A DNA stretch of 35,856 bases from Candidatus Pacearchaeota archaeon. Lineage in GTDB: Archaea; Nanobdellota; Nanobdellia; Pacearchaeales; GW2011-AR1. A program made the position numbers and the translations under genes. Shown in pieces: positions 29,908-35,856 of the stretch. The notes under the pieces are model-generated. The model saw only the letters and a list, made by a program, of their open reading frames with translations, did no database searches and was not told where the DNA came from. The number at the start of each line of letters is the position of its first letter. The first letter of the stretch is position 1. The stretch lies in the NCBI GenBank assembly GCA_018303885.1, contig JAGVXG010000001.1:75746-111601 (forward strand), given 5' to 3'.

Positions 29908-30207
29908 ATGCCAAAAAAATATAAGATATACGCAACAGCAGTGATTGATTTTGAGAAAAGTGAAGAAGTTTGTTTATTTGCAAAACTAAAAGATAATGGC
30001 TTTAAGGTCACTGGTGGCTGGCCCATACAAGAAATACATCATAAATCAATGCCAGCAGACATAGCGATGGGACAGATTGATTTATTTTATGGACGCTGCC
30101 GTCTTTATGTTTTAAATGTTGAAGGCAATCCACTGGAAAAGTTTGTTGAGCAATATGATTCATTAAGTTTGGGTCCTCTGCCTCGTCGTCATTCTCGAGC
30201 TAAGTAA
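29908..30207 (+). CDS. hypothetical protein, first of a tandem paralogue pair
   Basis: This 99-residue protein shares a core with the next gene: VIDFEKSEEVCLFAKLKDNG then FKVTGGWPIQEIH. Cores end with RLYVLNVEGNPLEKFVEQYD against FHLYVREIEDNPLKRIAVEY in the next gene. No family is known to me. It looks like a small alpha-beta domain, without membrane segment. The C-terminus adds an Arg-rich tail (LPRRHSRAK) absent in the paralogue. A TTTATAAAC box about 26 nt before the ATG supports the start. Confidence 0.6.
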   Translation: MPKKYKIYATAVIDFEKSEEVCLFAKLKDNGFKVTGGWPIQEIHHKSMPADIAMGQIDLFYGRCRLYVLNVEGNPLEKFVEQYDSLSLGPLPRRHSRAK

Positions 30208-30327
30208 TAATATCAAATTAAATATTTCAATACCAAAGGCTTTTATACTAAAAATCCAAAAATCTAGTGTGGCAAAGTAAATTAAAGAAGCAGAATATTT
30301 ATAAAGTTCTTAATTGGTTTTTTGAAA

Positions 30328-30573
30328 ATGGCTAAGACACATTCAACAAGAATTGATTTTGAAAAAGATGAAGTAGCAGGATTAATGCAAAAAATAAGAG
30401 ATAGTGGACTAAAAATAAAAAAAGGCTATCCATTTTATAAGATATGCGCTAATTCCTCTGAACCTGAAAAAGAATTAGGAGAAATAGACGCGTGTTCTGA
30501 AGATTTTCATTTGTATGTTAGAGAAATTGAAGATAATCCATTAAAGAGAATTGCTGTAGAATATTTAAAATAG
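30328..30573 (+). CDS. hypothetical protein, second of a tandem paralogue pair
   Basis: The 81-residue protein begins MAKTHSTRIDFEKDEVAGLM and continues QKIRDSGLKIKKGYPFYKIC, matching the preceding gene's IDFEK and DNGFKVTGGWPI segments. The pair therefore arose by duplication. I start at ATG 30328 because ATTTATAAAG at 30297-30306 is centred about 26 nt upstream; a TTG start 6 nt earlier is unlikely. No function is recognisable. Both genes have their own promoters. Confidence 0.6.
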   Translation: MAKTHSTRIDFEKDEVAGLMQKIRDSGLKIKKGYPFYKICANSSEPEKELGEIDACSEDFHLYVREIEDNPLKRIAVEYLK

Positions 30574-31296: not shown

Positions 31297-31332
31297 GACC
31301 ATCTGAGCATATGTTTGAGTAAGATAATATAT

Positions 31333-31406
31333 GGCTCCGTAGCTCAGCCTGGTAGAGCACTGGACTTTTAATCCAGGTGTCGTGGGTTCAAATCCCATCG
31401 GGGCCA
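31333..31406 (+). tRNA. tRNA-Lys (anticodon TTT)
   Basis: A 74-nt cloverleaf: acceptor GGCTCCG with CGGGGCC, D stem GCTC/GAGC, anticodon stem CTGGA/TCCAG with loop CTTTTAA (anticodon TTT), T stem GTGGG/CCCAT with loop TTCAAAT, and discriminator A at 31406. No CCA and no intron. It has no TATA box at the right place. It probably shares the promoter in front of the half tRNA at 31259, which would then be part of its precursor. A T run follows. Confidence 0.95.
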
Positions 31407-31447
31407 TTTTTAATTCTGTATTAACTTAATAGTTACTAAAATAGAAA

Positions 31448-31466
31448 TATTTAAATACTATATTTA
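31448..31466 (+). promoter_or_regulatory. promoter of the Pup operon
   Basis: TATTTAAATAC then TATATTTAT lies 21-39 nt before the ATPase ATG at 31487. The second half is centred near 25 nt upstream, so the transcript is leaderless or has a very short leader. The box type equals those of the neighbouring archaeal genes, which argues that the operon belongs to this genome. Confidence 0.55.
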
Positions 31467-31486: not shown

Positions 31487-32998
31487 ATGACAAGAGAAGA
31501 AGACAGAGAAAGGGAAATACAACAGCTGAAAGATATTGCTTTAAGAGCTAGAGAAAAATTATCGGAAGCAGAGGAATTTATAGTTCATGTAACTCGTCCG
31601 CCATTTATTTATGGAACAGTTATTAGTGTTAATGAGGATTCTGTAGATGTCGATGTTAATGGAAGAGTCATGGAAGTTGGTTATAATCCTGAAATTTTAG
31701 ATGAACTTATTCCTGGTGCTGGTGCGAGACTAAATCCAGAGACTTATGCAGTTATTGAAACAAGAGAAAGAAAAGGGGGAAACATTTTAACAAGTATAGA
31801 AGAAATTTTAGAAGATGGAAGCGTTGTGGTGAATGTTGGGGGAAGACGACAAGTTTTGAAAACCGAAGAAGAAGTTAGAGAGGGAGATAGAATTACTGTT
31901 GACCCAAATTTTCGTATAATCTTACAAAATTTTGGTAAGAAGTCTAATCAACATCATGTTGCGGAAATTCCTATTGTTCCTTGGAGTAAAATTGGTGGTT
32001 TGGAATCAGCAATACAATCTTTAAGAGACGCGATAGAAGAACCGTTTATTTATAAGGATATTTATGCTAGATACGGCAAAAGAGCGCCAAAAGGAGTTTT
32101 GTTACATGGACCTTCTGGATGCGGCAAAACATTATTGGGTAAAGCAGTTGCTTATAATCTATCAGAGAGATTAAAAAAACAGGGAGGCCAATCAAACGGG
32201 AATGGTTATTTCTTAAGTGTGAAAGGTCCAGATTTAAAAACTATGTGGTATGGGGAATCAGAAAGAGGAATAAGAGAACTTTTTTCAACAGGTAGAGAAA
32301 ATTCAAGGCAAACTGGGGATGTAACTGTAATGTTCCTGGATGAAGCAGAGTCTTTATTCGGAAGAAGGGGAAGCAAGATGGGAGGAGGACATATAGACGA
32401 CTCTTTAGTTAATCAGTTTTTGGCAGAGATGGATGGCATGGAAGCAAATCATAATATTGTTTTGATATTGGCAACAAATAGGGCAGATATGATTGATTCT
32501 GCAGTTTTAAGACCTGGCAGAATAGATAAAAGAATTAGGGTGGGAAGACCAAATAATCAAGATTCTGTTAGAGATATATTTGGAATTCATCTTGGTGGAA
32601 TGCCCGTTTATGGTAACGGAGCTACACGGGATGACCATAATACCCTTGCCCTTGCAAAATATGCAAGCGAACATTTATTTGGAAGCGAGTATCCTATTTT
32701 TGATGTAAGATTCAGAGAGGGAGACTTTGCTTATGTTGGAATGGAGCATTTAACAAGTGGTGCAATGATAGAATCAATTTCTCAAAGAGCAGCAGGAAAA
32801 GCAATTAAAAGAGAAATAGGCGGGAAAAAAGAAGGCTTGACAAAAGATGATTTAACTGATTCGATTAGAGACGAGTATTCTGAATTTAAAGATTTAGCAG
32901 TTTGTGATGCAGATGATTTAAGAGAAATATTCCCTAAAAGATATGATTCTATTGCTGAACTAAATAGATCATACAATAGAGGGAAACATGGCCATTAA
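31487..32998 (+). CDS. Mpa/ARC-type proteasomal AAA ATPase (Pup-dependent unfoldase)
   Basis: The 503-residue protein has the Mpa/ARC order: an N-terminal coiled coil (residues 3-34, REEDREREIQQLKDIALRA), two OB-type beta domains (about 36-95 and 98-150), and one AAA domain. The AAA domain holds Walker A GPSGCGKT (208-215), Walker B VMFLDEAESLF, sensor ATNRADM and Arg-finger LRPGRID. Mpa/ARC rings bind Pup through the coiled coil and thread pupylated proteins into the 20S proteasome. The coil is shorter than in actinobacterial Mpa (whole protein near 590-610 aa). The C-terminus (YNRGKHGH) lacks the usual HbYX docking motif. The gene overlaps the Dop homologue by 11 nt and lies in a Pup gene cluster, which supports Mpa/ARC over a Cdc48 or PAN assignment. 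Confidence 0.88.
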   Translation: MTREEDREREIQQLKDIALRAREKLSEAEEFIVHVTRPPFIYGTVISVNEDSVDVDVNGRVMEVGYNPEILDELIPGAGARLNPETYAVIETRERKGGNILTSIEEILEDGSVVVNVGGRRQVLKTEEEVREGDRITVDPNFRIILQNFGKKSNQHHVAEIPIVPWSKIGGLESAIQSLRDAIEEPFIYKDIYARYGKRAPKGVLLHGPSGCGKTLLGKAVAYNLSERLKKQGGQSNGNGYFLSVKGPDLKTMWYGESERGIRELFSTGRENSRQTGDVTVMFLDEAESLFGRRGSKMGGGHIDDSLVNQFLAEMDGMEANHNIVLILATNRADMIDSAVLRPGRIDKRIRVGRPNNQDSVRDIFGIHLGGMPVYGNGATRDDHNTLALAKYASEHLFGSEYPIFDVRFREGDFAYVGMEHLTSGAMIESISQRAAGKAIKREIGGKKEGLTKDDLTDSIRDEYSEFKDLAVCDADDLREIFPKRYDSIAELNRSYNRGKHGH

Positions 32999-34235
32999 AA
33001 GAGTTATGGGCACTGAGACTGAGTACGGTATAATTGGAGGCAGTGCTTCACGAGTTCTTGATAATTACAAAGGAAAAAGTAAGACTCATGAAAACAAATC
33101 TCCAACAAATCAATCTGCAATTCCTCAGATGAGTGACGAAGGTCATTTTGGAGGAGATTATCAAGGGCAAGAAATGGATGAAAACCTCTCTCTCAGTTTA
33201 GGATTTGGAGTAACCCCAACAAGGTCTCATGGGAAGGGTTTTTATGGGGGATTTTCGCAATATTTTTGTAGAGATGAAATGTTGGCTAATGGAGCAAGAT
33301 TTTATATTGACATGGGCCACCCAGAATATTCTACGCCAGAATGTTCAAATCCACTTTCTGCTGTGGTTGCTGACAAAGCAGGAGAAAGAATTTTGGAAGA
33401 TGCATCAAATAACGGAAAAATCGCCAGAATTTTTAAGAATAATACAGATGGAACTATTTCCTATGGAGCACATGAAAATTATTTTGTCGATAGAATAAAT
33501 TTACAAGCATTTCAAAATTTGGCTGATTTTATGACTCCTTTTTTTGTTTCGAGACCAATTTTTACAGGAAGCGGTAAGATAGGTTTTGTAGACGAAAGAA
33601 GCAGAGAATTACAACGAGTAATGGGTAATGTTCTAGAAGGCTATTCTTCTTTGGAAAGTTTGGCTGTTGGAGAGTTGGCAGAGATTTATTCAAGAGTTAG
33701 AAACGGCTTGGATGAAATTATTGGAAAAATGAGGAAAGATGAATTTGTATTTCATATATCTCAACGCGCTGATTTTTTCAGTCAATTAATGGGCTTACAG
33801 ACTACTTATGACAGACCAATAATAAATACAAGAGACGAACCATTATCAGATAGAAGCAAATACTTAAGATTTCACGTTATTAATGGCGATGCAAATATGT
33901 CAGAAGTTGCTACTTATCTAAAGCTGGGAACCGCAGCACTAGCATTAGACTTATTTGAAGACAAACAGATAGAGGTTTTTCAACTAGATTCTCCAATTAA
34001 AGCGTTTCATGCAATCTCAAGAGATCCAACTCTTCAGACGCGAGTTGATGTAAAAGACCAAGGAGAAATGACTGCAATTGAAATTCAAAGAGTTTATCAG
34101 GAAGCTGCAGAGGCTGCTTATAGAGGCCGAGATGAAATGACTGATGATATTCTCAATAGATGGAAGTTTGTTTTAGATTCTCTTCAGGGAAATCCAATGA
34201 GCTTGGATAGAATTAATAGACTCTTATATGGCTAG
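32988..34235 (+). CDS. dop: Dop-like Pup deamidase/depupylase, catalytic part (N-terminal)
   Basis: The 415-residue protein shows the Dop/PafA glutamine-synthetase-like fold: MAIKRVMGTETEYGI at the start, NGARFYIDMGHPEYSTPECS with the catalytic Asp108, KNNTDGTISYGAHENYF, INTRDEPLSDRSKYLRFHVI and GDANMSEVATYLKLGT. It is more like Dop than PafA: MGTETEYGI is followed by a long loop (about residues 18-95, the Dop-loop region), and HAISRDPTL and GDANMSEVATYLKLGT match Dop. It has an extra 45-residue stretch at 201-253 before FHISQR. Dop removes the amide from Pup's last Gln and cleaves Pup from proteins. Translation stops at 34233-34235, just before the usual C-terminal domain, which is in the next frame. 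Confidence 0.9.
   Translation: MAIKRVMGTETEYGIIGGSASRVLDNYKGKSKTHENKSPTNQSAIPQMSDEGHFGGDYQGQEMDENLSLSLGFGVTPTRSHGKGFYGGFSQYFCRDEMLANGARFYIDMGHPEYSTPECSNPLSAVVADKAGERILEDASNNGKIARIFKNNTDGTISYGAHENYFVDRINLQAFQNLADFMTPFFVSRPIFTGSGKIGFVDERSRELQRVMGNVLEGYSSLESLAVGELAEIYSRVRNGLDEIIGKMRKDEFVFHISQRADFFSQLMGLQTTYDRPIINTRDEPLSDRSKYLRFHVINGDANMSEVATYLKLGTAALALDLFEDKQIEVFQLDSPIKAFHAISRDPTLQTRVDVKDQGEMTAIEIQRVYQEAAEAAYRGRDEMTDDILNRWKFVLDSLQGNPMSLDRINRLLYG
34058..34211 (+). repeat. 154-bp direct repeat, copy 1 (inside dop)
   Basis: This stretch, beginning CCAAGGAGAAATGACTGCAA, is identical to 35703-35856 except at two positions: 34061 A against 35706 G, and 34112 G against 35757 A. Both differences are silent in the shared reading frame, so the encoded residues are the same. 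The rest of the two genes is far more divergent, so recent gene conversion or an assembly problem is likely. Confidence 0.95.
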
Positions 34236-34674
34236 AACTGGAAAAAACTTAAGTGATACTGCTGTAAGAAACATTGACTTACAGTATCATGAAGTTAACA
34301 GACAAACAGGATTATTTTATATGCTTCAGTCAAGAGGATTGGTTGATAGAATGTTAACTGATGAACAAATAGAACACGCTGTTGAACATCCTCCAGAAGA
34401 TACAAGGGCATATTTAAGGGGAGAGTTAATAAGAAGAAATAGAGTTTCAAATTCTGATTGGGATAGGTTATCATTAGATGGCCATATGGCAGATGTATTA
34501 CTACCAGAACCCTTTATGGGAACTAAAACCGAAGTGGGATATTTATTTGATGGAAAAAAATTTACAAATGATCAATTAGTTGCAGAATTAAAAGAAAAGG
34601 GATATGTAGAAGAAAGAAGGTATTTTAAATTTTCAAGTAAAGGATGGGGAGGTAAAAAACATGGAAAGAAATAG
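34228..34674 (+). CDS. C-terminal domain of the Dop-like protein in a separate frame
   Basis: The 148-residue protein matches the C-terminal domain of Dop/PafA, which in other organisms is joined to the catalytic part. RNIDLQYHEVNRQTGLFYML, HAVEHPPEDTRAYLRGELIR and DVLLPEPFMGTKTEVGYLFD parallel actinobacterial Dop. Its ATG lies inside ATGGCTAG and overlaps the end of the catalytic frame by 8 nt in the +1 frame. It therefore looks like either a split enzyme made of two coupled chains or a frame-disrupted Dop. No SD precedes it. The last residues (WGGKKHGKK) overlap the Pup gene by 14 nt. Confidence 0.85.
   Translation: MARTGKNLSDTAVRNIDLQYHEVNRQTGLFYMLQSRGLVDRMLTDEQIEHAVEHPPEDTRAYLRGELIRRNRVSNSDWDRLSLDGHMADVLLPEPFMGTKTEVGYLFDGKKFTNDQLVAELKEKGYVEERRYFKFSSKGWGGKKHGKK
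34646..34653 (+). promoter_or_regulatory. strong ribosome binding site of pup
   Basis: GGGGAGGT lies 7 nt before the pup ATG at 34661, a much fuller SD sequence than most in this window, and overlaps codons of the preceding gene. It would allow high synthesis of the small modifier within the operon. Confidence 0.6.
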
Positions 34675-34849
34675 GGAATATGAAAGACTTGATCAAGGAG
34701 CTTATGACCAAGGAAACGAAATCTGCGAAGAAGGGCCTAGAGGAGAAATCAAACCTCCTGCAGGAATTGAAGATCTTCTTGGAGAAATAGACAAAGTAGT
34801 CGGCAAAAGCAATCTTTCAAGAGAATATAAACAAACAGGGGGACAGTAA
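34661..34849 (+). CDS. pup: Prokaryotic ubiquitin-like protein Pup (Gln-ending form)
   Basis: The 62-residue protein ends QTGGQ, and the stretch IEDLLGEIDKVVGKSNLSRE then YKQTGGQ parallels the C-terminal half of actinobacterial Pup (DLLDEIDDVL ... YVQKGGQ). The first half is low-complexity and acidic/Arg-rich (MERNREYERLDQGAYDQGNE), fitting Pup's disordered N-terminus, which is threaded by Mpa. The Gln end means it must be deamidated by a Dop before ligation. Length is typical (60-70). It overlaps the preceding frame by 14 nt, has a strong SD, and its TAA overlaps the next ATG (TAATG). It sits between the depupylase and second Dop/PafA genes. Independent of neighbours the C-terminal match is short, but together the case is strong. 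Confidence 0.9.
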   Translation: MERNREYERLDQGAYDQGNEICEEGPRGEIKPPAGIEDLLGEIDKVVGKSNLSREYKQTGGQ

Positions 34850-35856
34850 TGTTGCCCTCAAAAAATAAAGCACATCTAGAAGCATCAGACCAAGCTATAA
34901 GTAGCATCGCATCAAATTCAAGCCCAAAATATTCCAGAAAAAGAATTATGGGAAGTGAACAAGAGTATGGTATTTTAGTAAAATGTAGATTCTATGAAAG
35001 AGCTCGAGAAGGAATGTGTTCTCATTATGGTAATGATGGTTGTTGGGGTTTGAAAGACGGGGATCGATCATTTCAAAGAAATGGGGGGTTTTTATATGTA
35101 GACTGCGGTCACCCTGAATACGCAAGTCCAGAAACAAGTAATCCACTAGATGCTGTTTTATACGATAAAGCCGGAGAATTACTTGTTCAAAGAAAAGTTA
35201 GAGGGAATGAAGTTAGGTTATTTAAAAATAACAGAGATTCGCAAGGAAATTCTTTTGCTTCACACGAAAGTTATAGCTTATCTAGGGCTAATCTTATTTT
35301 GGCTGATTTTGATTCAATTATTAATACTACTTTGCCGTTTTTTATTTCAAGAATTATTTTTGCTGGTAGTGGGTTTATTAACCAAAGGGGGAAGTATGAA
35401 ATATCTCAGAGAGCCGGAGTAACCAAAAATGAAATATCTGGAAGGGCCACCGATAGTAGGGGGATTTTTAATACAAAAGACGACCCATTAATGAACGGAA
35501 ATAAATATGCCCGCCTTCATGTTATCAATGGTGATGCAAATAGGTCTGAACCGGCATTGTTCTTAAAATTTGGAACAATGGGATTAGTCCTTGATCTTTT
35601 TGAAGACAAAAAATTAAAACCATTCGGGGTTATAGATGGATTAGATGCCTTCCATAGAATTTCATGTGATTTAAGTTTTTCTGAAAGGTATGGTGTTAGA
35701 TTCCAGGGAGAAATGACTGCAATTGAAATTCAAAGAGTTTATCAGGAAGCTGCAGAAGCTGCTTATAGAGGCCGAGATGAAATGACTGATGATATTCTCA
35801 ATAGATGGAAGTTTGTTTTAGATTCTCTTCAGGGAAATCCAATGAGCTTGGATAGA
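34849..35856 (+). CDS. pafA: second Dop/PafA homologue, probably the Pup ligase PafA (3' end outside window)
   Basis: From ATG 34849 the frame is open to the window end (336 codons). It has the PafA/Dop signature YSRKRIMGSEQEYGI, FLYVDCGHPEYASPETSNPL with the catalytic Asp85, VRLFKNNRDSQGNSFASHES and ARLHVINGDANRSEPALFLK. Only about 36 residues lie between EYGI and NGGFLYVD, so the Dop loop is missing, as in PafA, and the RRIMGIE-like start supports a ligase. Unusual changes are TKDDP for TRDEP and HESY for HENY, and a 30-residue Ser/Lys-rich extension precedes the domain. The last 51 residues (from QGEMTAIEIQRVYQE) are identical to those of the first homologue. The C-terminal domain is beyond the window. 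The PafA assignment is inferred from loop length and gene set. Confidence 0.8.
   Translation, partial: MLPSKNKAHLEASDQAISSIASNSSPKYSRKRIMGSEQEYGILVKCRFYERAREGMCSHYGNDGCWGLKDGDRSFQRNGGFLYVDCGHPEYASPETSNPLDAVLYDKAGELLVQRKVRGNEVRLFKNNRDSQGNSFASHESYSLSRANLILADFDSIINTTLPFFISRIIFAGSGFINQRGKYEISQRAGVTKNEISGRATDSRGIFNTKDDPLMNGNKYARLHVINGDANRSEPALFLKFGTMGLVLDLFEDKKLKPFGVIDGLDAFHRISCDLSFSERYGVRFQGEMTAIEIQRVYQEAAEAAYRGRDEMTDDILNRWKFVLDSLQGNPMSLDR
35703..35856 (+). repeat. 154-bp direct repeat, copy 2 (inside the second Dop/PafA gene)
   Basis: This is the second copy of the 34058-34211 repeat, offset by 1645 bp and ending exactly at the window edge. A contig break inside or at the end of a repeat is the classic mark of assembly ambiguity, so the join at the start of this copy should be treated with caution. 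Confidence 0.95.

Follow-up and report, generated by a model that had tools for sequence, protein, structure and literature searches.

A probable, highly divergent operon for Pup conjugation in the chromosome of a DPANN-type archaeon

The prokaryotic ubiquitin-like tag Pup has been placed in the Actinobacteria and a small number of further bacterial phyla (PMC2588565, PMC3511204, PMC6466877), and the locus described here raises the question of whether an archaeon can carry such a tagging system of its own. The locus lies at positions 31487-35856 of a 35,856-nucleotide stretch of DNA (the window) from Candidatus Pacearchaeota archaeon (assembly GCA_018303885.1, contig JAGVXG010000001.1, positions 75,746 to 111,601 of the forward strand). 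The original prediction, made from the sequence without database searches, was that it encodes an archaeal Pup system, of which its author knew no established description. The proposal is supported by homology and gene order, by trees, and by two more genomes from archaea. Judged by sequence comparison, the operon is highly likely to be a real archaeal Pup-type system, and we consider that the chromosome of this DPANN-type archaeon very probably holds a genuine, divergent operon for Pup conjugation, for which a mechanism is proposed below. It is apparently the first archaeal Pup-type system, with no report of archaeal pupylation found in searches of the open-access literature, where absence is no proof.

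The operon consists of five open reading frames (ORFs) on the + strand, encoding in order a Mpa/ARC-type ATPase (31487-32998, 503 residues), the large catalytic domain of a Dop-type depupylase/deamidase (32988-34235, 415 residues), the Dop C-terminal domain (34228-34674, 148 residues), a Pup-like protein (34661-34849, 62 residues) and the first 336 residues of a PafA-type Pup ligase (34849-35856), the last frame being open. Neighbouring frames overlap by 11, 8, 14 and 1 nt in that order, exactly as first described, and at 0.34-0.37 the operon matches the window in G+C content. The ATPase matches the NCBIfam model TIGR03689 (pup_AAA) over residues 12-491 (E 5.1e-106) and groups in a tree with bacterial Mpa, apart from PAN and CDC48, with support of 100/100. 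It carries Walker motifs and tandem OB folds, and its AlphaFold model (18-row alignment; predicted local distance difference test score, pLDDT, 80) has a helix of 35 residues at the N-terminus, two sets of OB-like strands and an AAA module, such that the N-terminal coiled coil, tandem OB domains and AAA module that define Mpa/ARC proteins are all present, with a coiled coil much shorter than in most bacteria. The 30 best PDB fold matches to this model are all mycobacterial Mpa. VCP-like chains rank first in a phmmer search, and identification of the protein as PAN or CDC48 is rejected, given its coverage by TIGR03689, its place in the tree and its fold matches; the predicted Mpa/ARC type is borne out.

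The presence of a Dop-like protein and of a second Dop/PafA homologue is likewise upheld. All three ORFs exceed the gathering score (25 bits) of Pfam family PF03136 (Pup_ligase), at 321.6 bits for the Dop-like ORF (E 1.2e-95), 77.9 bits for the Dop C-terminal ORF (E 1.1e-21, profile positions 359-440) and 256.9 bits for the PafA ORF (E 4.9e-76), and the PDB relatives of both enzyme ORFs are Dop and PafA only. The features that tell Dop from PafA are the Dop-loop, the alpha-loop and a set of uniquely conserved positions (PMC8599861, PMC7947786). By alignment, the first enzyme, with its long and diverged Dop-loop, the alpha-loop GLQTT and PEPFMGT at the C-terminus, is of Dop type, and the second, without a Dop-loop and with a C-terminal DPF motif encoded on another contig (C1), is of PafA type. 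The ExE motif and catalytic Asp are retained in both, and the Dop-type ORF displays the catalytic motifs ETEYG and IDMGHPEYSTPEC. The alpha-loop pattern S S x T T x S of PafA is kept in part by the ISGRATDS of this genome, and more fully by the ISSMTTYS of the PafA from another archaeal genome, G405. Phylogenies, which had been suggested as a check, place the first enzyme inside the Dop clade, and group the PafA with those of G405 and G456 (same family) outside both bacterial clades; the branches are long, too long for a donor lineage to be named from the Dop and PafA trees. As observations apart, the long Dop-loop of the Dop-type ORF is without a WDxE motif, and the same ORF carries at about residues 203-252 an insertion of about 45 residues, DERSRELQRVMGN...KMRKDEF, that is absent from the other aligned Dop proteins.

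The 62-residue protein ends ...IEDLLGEIDKVVGKSNLSREYKQTGGQ (...EYKQTGGQ), the GGQ terminus having been correctly foreseen. Bacterial Pups end DDLLDEIDxVLEENAEEFVRxYVQKGG[QE], and the invariant D, Y and G columns of the Pup alignment are present in the archaeal protein. Pups have been recognised by a length of 50-90 residues, a C-terminal G[EQ] and a gene adjoining pafA or dop (PMC2588565), and this protein has the length, the GGQ end and a gene between dop and pafA. Searches of Pfam, NCBIfam, PHROGs and the PDB with the protein gave nothing useful. With a profile of 52 bacterial Pups it was the best frame of the window, and it and a protein from a third archaeal genome, G136, were the top two of 3504 reading frames (E 0.12 and 0.035, respectively); when two other archaeal Pups were added to the profile and the 62-residue protein was left out, it was retrieved at E 0.0078. 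We assign it as Pup because of its position between dop and pafA, as in bacteria, its C-terminus, and its equivalents in G405 (ending YTQNSGE, upstream of pafA) and G136 (ending YVLEKSGQ, between dop and a gene for a 20S beta subunit).

The chromosomal setting of the operon is archaeal. The window forms the terminal part of contig C6, one of the 17 contigs of a 720-kb genome (completeness 85%, contamination estimate 0.31%), and C6 stops inside a 166-nt stretch repeated in dop and pafA. The end of contig C1 overlaps the end of C6 by exactly 76 nt, and across this overlap the pafA frame runs on to give a 488-residue protein; exact overlap of two contig ends would be the trace left by an unresolved repeat in a k-mer graph. 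Downstream of pafA, C1 carries two ORFs, then Rpo5 and Rpo2 (Rpb2 domains), and farther along Rpo1, uS12, uS7, EF-2 and EF-1alpha, recognised from their translations. Only one linear path takes in all the pieces: tRNA-Lys - mpa - dop - pup - pafA - two ORFs - Rpo5 - Rpo2. In two genomes of the same genus, G010 and G006, tRNA-Lys is followed by a small ORF and then directly by Rpo5 and Rpo2, with the operon absent, and in G010 thioredoxin precedes tRNA-Lys, as in the window. This empty site confirms the join of C6 and C1 from outside and places the operon in an archaeal chromosome.

The concern that the operon might be absent from every related archaeal genome does not hold either. The full Pup set was found in this genome and in G136 only, among the genomes sampled. 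G136, which belongs to another family, has pafA, mpa, dop, pup and prcB on a contig that also encodes archaeal Cbf5, and G405 has pup and pafA beside the genes for the large and small subunits of replication factor C (RFC), on a contig that ends soon after pup. Counting this genome, PF03136 genes are found in 5 of 371 genomes sampled across the phylum, in 5 of 181 from the family and in 8 of 378 from the class; lone PafA-family genes are present in about 2% of relatives, and most relatives have none. Mpa occurs in the sampled genomes only where pup is also present.

Lone, very divergent PafA/Dop-family genes were noted at L008:9715-11007 (G038), L018:8626-9918 (G056), L019:8612-10207 (G199), L128:1996-3378 (G456), L131:6054-7535 (G565), L129:4963-6321 (G488) and L130:5497-6849 (G489), those of G488 and G489 in the same place, adjoining seryl-tRNA synthetase. 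Genomes with such genes yielded no Mpa, and no Pup by profile search, the three genomes matched by that search being members of the profile. The lone genes may be an unexplained archaeal branch of PF03136 with another substrate. In G180 (L020:5064-5294, - strand) a remnant of the PF03136 C-terminal region, with an internal stop in the match, is apparently a decayed PafA/Dop gene. Outside the archaea, GenBank record MT835496.1, a 159-kb unannotated 'Bacteriophage sp.' sequence from human faeces, matches Dop/PafA at 42207-43046 (best identity 37.7%; two matching places in the record), and may hold a phage gene or be a mislabelled bacterial contig; it is the only record found that might speak for a phage origin, a reading that was set aside.

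Proteasome genes are present in both archaea with a full Pup set, in different form. The genome studied here has one 20S alpha and one 20S beta gene on another contig, both of archaeal type, and CDC48. In G136 the operon itself holds a bacterial-type (PrcB-like) 20S beta gene (L017:12679-13464; TIGR03690 best match, tree support 100/100), archaeal 20S alpha and beta genes lie elsewhere, and no bacterial-type 20S alpha was found to match the bacterial-type beta. Taken together, the two genomes point to at least two proteasome arrangements in archaea.

From this gene content we propose that Dop would turn the C-terminal Gln of the 62-residue Pup into Glu, and that PafA would use ATP to phosphorylate this Glu and join Pup to lysines of target proteins, from which Dop could take it off again. 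A hexameric Mpa-like ring would bind Pup through its short N-terminal coiled coil, pull it through the AAA pore and unfold the target, which the ordinary archaeal 20S core would then degrade. The sequences show the identity, order and motifs of the genes, their archaeal neighbours and the 20S genes of the genome; each catalytic step, the recognition of Pup and the hand-over to the 20S core are predictions, the hand-over being the least certain because a docking tail is missing from the ATPase. As to whether the whole pathway is at work, up to degradation by the archaeal 20S, we lean slightly towards doubt.

Systems of this kind are known; the new elements are the archaeal domain of the host, the combination with an archaeal 20S and how far each component has diverged. 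The bacterial Pup-proteasome system, found in Actinobacteria and sporadically in Nitrospirota, Poribacteria, Myxococcota, Rokubacteria and NC10, shares with the archaeal operon the gene set, the order mpa-dop-pup-...-pafA, the Pup end GG[Q/E], the motif distinctions between Dop and PafA, and the coiled coil, two OB folds and AAA module of Mpa. In contrast to it, the present system has an archaeal host, identities of roughly 33-44%, a split Dop, no prcBA in its operon and an archaeal 20S elsewhere, a Mpa with a shortened coiled coil and no GxYx tail, and a Pup that falls below PF05639 detection and has two residues fewer ahead of its last tyrosine. Other small tags have been proposed to feed the archaeal 20S, namely SAMP/Urm1 and the ubiquitin-like protein of Caldiarchaeum (PMC4569737, PMC11354881). 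Unlike those systems, which use E1-type activation and beta-grasp tags, this one has glutamine-synthetase-like enzymes of the PafA family and a short tag with a GGQ end.

Several observations weigh against reading the locus as a genuine Pup operon, and two of them, the break in Dop and the missing tail of the ATPase, call its function into question. Among the family thresholds tried only that of the broad PF03136 was reached, and all operon sequences are very divergent: the ATPase scores 355 bits against an equivalog cut-off of 505 (TIGR03689), the large domain of the split Dop 275 against 492 (TIGR03688), and the 336-residue part of PafA in the window 178 against 551 (TIGR03686). The 62-residue protein gave no match to PF05639 (gathering score 27 bits) at E 10, and a bacterial control scored 68 bits; the profile search of all five proteins that had been suggested succeeded for PF03136 and TIGR03689, and failed for this last family. 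The operon is absent from all ten same-genus genomes by PF03136 search (0/10). It is split over two contigs, and the joined PafA is inferred from overlap and synteny. Dop is not a single intact polypeptide in the assembly, and the frameshift that breaks it, if real and not reconstituted, would make activation of Pup-Gln impossible. That PAN was not detected in this genome speaks for the operon, but at a completeness of 85% its absence is uncertain, and PAN was not seen in the same-genus genomes either. Lastly, in a comparison of C-terminal tails the ATPase has neither GxYx nor HbYX and ends RGKHGH, whereas nearly all bacterial Mpa compared carry GQYL or a similar form of the GxYx tail, by which bacterial Mpa docks on the 20S (PMC6466877).

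This last point bears most directly on the main rival, in which tagging is real and independent of the 20S, such that Mpa merely unfolds pupylated proteins or pupylation serves as a regulatory mark; we regard this as possible, though on balance doubtful. The ARC of Corynebacterium, which has no proteasome, is thought to pull pupylated proteins apart, and the Corynebacterium ATPase likewise lacks the tail that nearly all bacterial Mpa compared here keep; the ARC/Dop/Pup/PafA locus of that genus resembles the archaeal operon further in having no prc genes. The 20S genes of the archaeon also lie elsewhere and are of plain archaeal type, unlike in G136 with its bacterial-type beta within the operon. 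However, a 20S core is present here, in contrast to Corynebacterium, and with PAN not found there is no proteasomal ATPase other than CDC48 to serve it, an objection weakened in turn by the same-genus genomes, which are also without detected PAN and manage without Mpa. Moreover, the Mpa of G136 lacks the tail despite its adjoining beta gene, and docking may use other contacts.

A second alternative is that the operon is decaying, a 26-nt deletion having inactivated Dop such that Pup-Gln is no longer activated. The repeated stretch already mentioned (34046-34211 in dop and 35691-35856 in pafA, both + strand) is 96% identical, with its last 99 nt fully so, and is, on nucleotide comparison, a putative case of recent gene-conversion-like homogenisation of dop and pafA. 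Just past a GATAGA, 26 nt of the PafA copy are absent from dop (34211/34212), a loss that takes out the conserved LDWVxKK stretch and throws the sequence beyond it out of frame. The 'separate C-terminal domain' of the original prediction is accordingly a real ORF, but one that is the rest of Dop, cut off by this deletion and frameshift. That C6 ends exactly where the two copies diverge suggests that the reads carried both versions. However, the downstream ORF is intact and has an ATG start of its own in an 8-nt overlap with the upstream stop, and the other genes of the operon are open. Over the 61 codons past the break the dop and PafA copies differ at 11 of 183 nt and 2 of 61 residues, with nonsynonymous (dN) and synonymous (dS) divergence of 0.02 and 0.25 and a dN/dS of about 0.08; the differences are mostly silent, and the C-terminal half of Dop therefore seems to have stayed under purifying selection after homogenisation. 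The break also falls at the edge of a repeat, a place where assemblers make errors. It may reflect a split enzyme that still works, a recent lesion or an error of assembly, and decay of the operon as a whole seems unlikely.

It is very improbable that the PafA-family enzymes act on something other than Pup and that the 62-residue protein is no tag: the lone PF03136 genes of several relatives without detectable Pup and the weak Pup match speak for it, but a small ORF at the bacterial pup position with a Pup-type Y.Q..GQ end, equivalents ending SGE in G405 and SGQ in G136, and the restriction of Mpa to genomes with pup speak against it. A bacterial contig either wrongly joined to archaeal DNA, the refutation foreseen by the original prediction, or binned together with it might explain the contig break inside the operon, the otherwise bacterial nature of the system and its absence from congeners. 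This is rejected as scarcely credible: C6 and C1 overlap, relatives have the empty site, both flanks are archaeal and match the operon-free locus, the far end joins the archaeal rpo locus, the bacterial sequences found are all distant (none closer than about 41%), close PafA kin occur in archaea of the same family, G+C is uniform and the contamination estimate is low.

For a divergent Pup conjugation operon in this archaeon, we offer tentatively, and as a rather unlikely whole, a hybrid pathway in which a bacterial-type tag and Mpa would feed an archaeal 20S by contacts other than the tail, with Pup genes that are old in the lineage and not recently borrowed from any sampled bacterium, and archaea possibly their donors or early holders. 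The age proposed for these genes is based on a divergent PafA common to the family and on a second full set in another family.

The surroundings of the operon offer a few further observations. Its left landmark is tRNA-Lys(TTT) (31332-31407, + strand), and by inspection an A+T-rich stretch resembling archaeal BRE/TATA sequences, GAAATATTTAAATACT (31444-31459, + strand), lies about 30 nt 5' of the first start codon as a candidate archaeal BRE/TATA element upstream of mpa. The two same-strand ORFs directly after pafA on C1 (L006:19051-19515 and L006:18162-19049, both - strand; about 137 and 296 residues) found no convincing family in family searches; they probably belong to the same insertion, and may belong to the operon too. 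Integration by recombination at tRNA-Lys was considered and is not supported, there being at the far end no exact tRNA repeat of at least 12 nt, and no flanking direct repeat of at least 11 nt. Elsewhere in the window, two adjacent small ORFs (29908-30207 and 30322-30573) are apparent paralogues of each other with no Pfam match.

Pupylation has been seen as a bacterial invention that works with a proteasome presumed to be a relative of the archaeal one, and an archaeal Pup operon in a genome with a native 20S breaks that boundary. It suggests a system of targeted degradation in ultra-small archaea where PAN has not been found. The very divergent Dop, PafA and Pup sequences provide material for study of the mechanism and the history of the pathway, and the two genomes, G136 with a bacterial-type beta subunit and the present one with none, are natural experiments on the matching of Mpa to the 20S.

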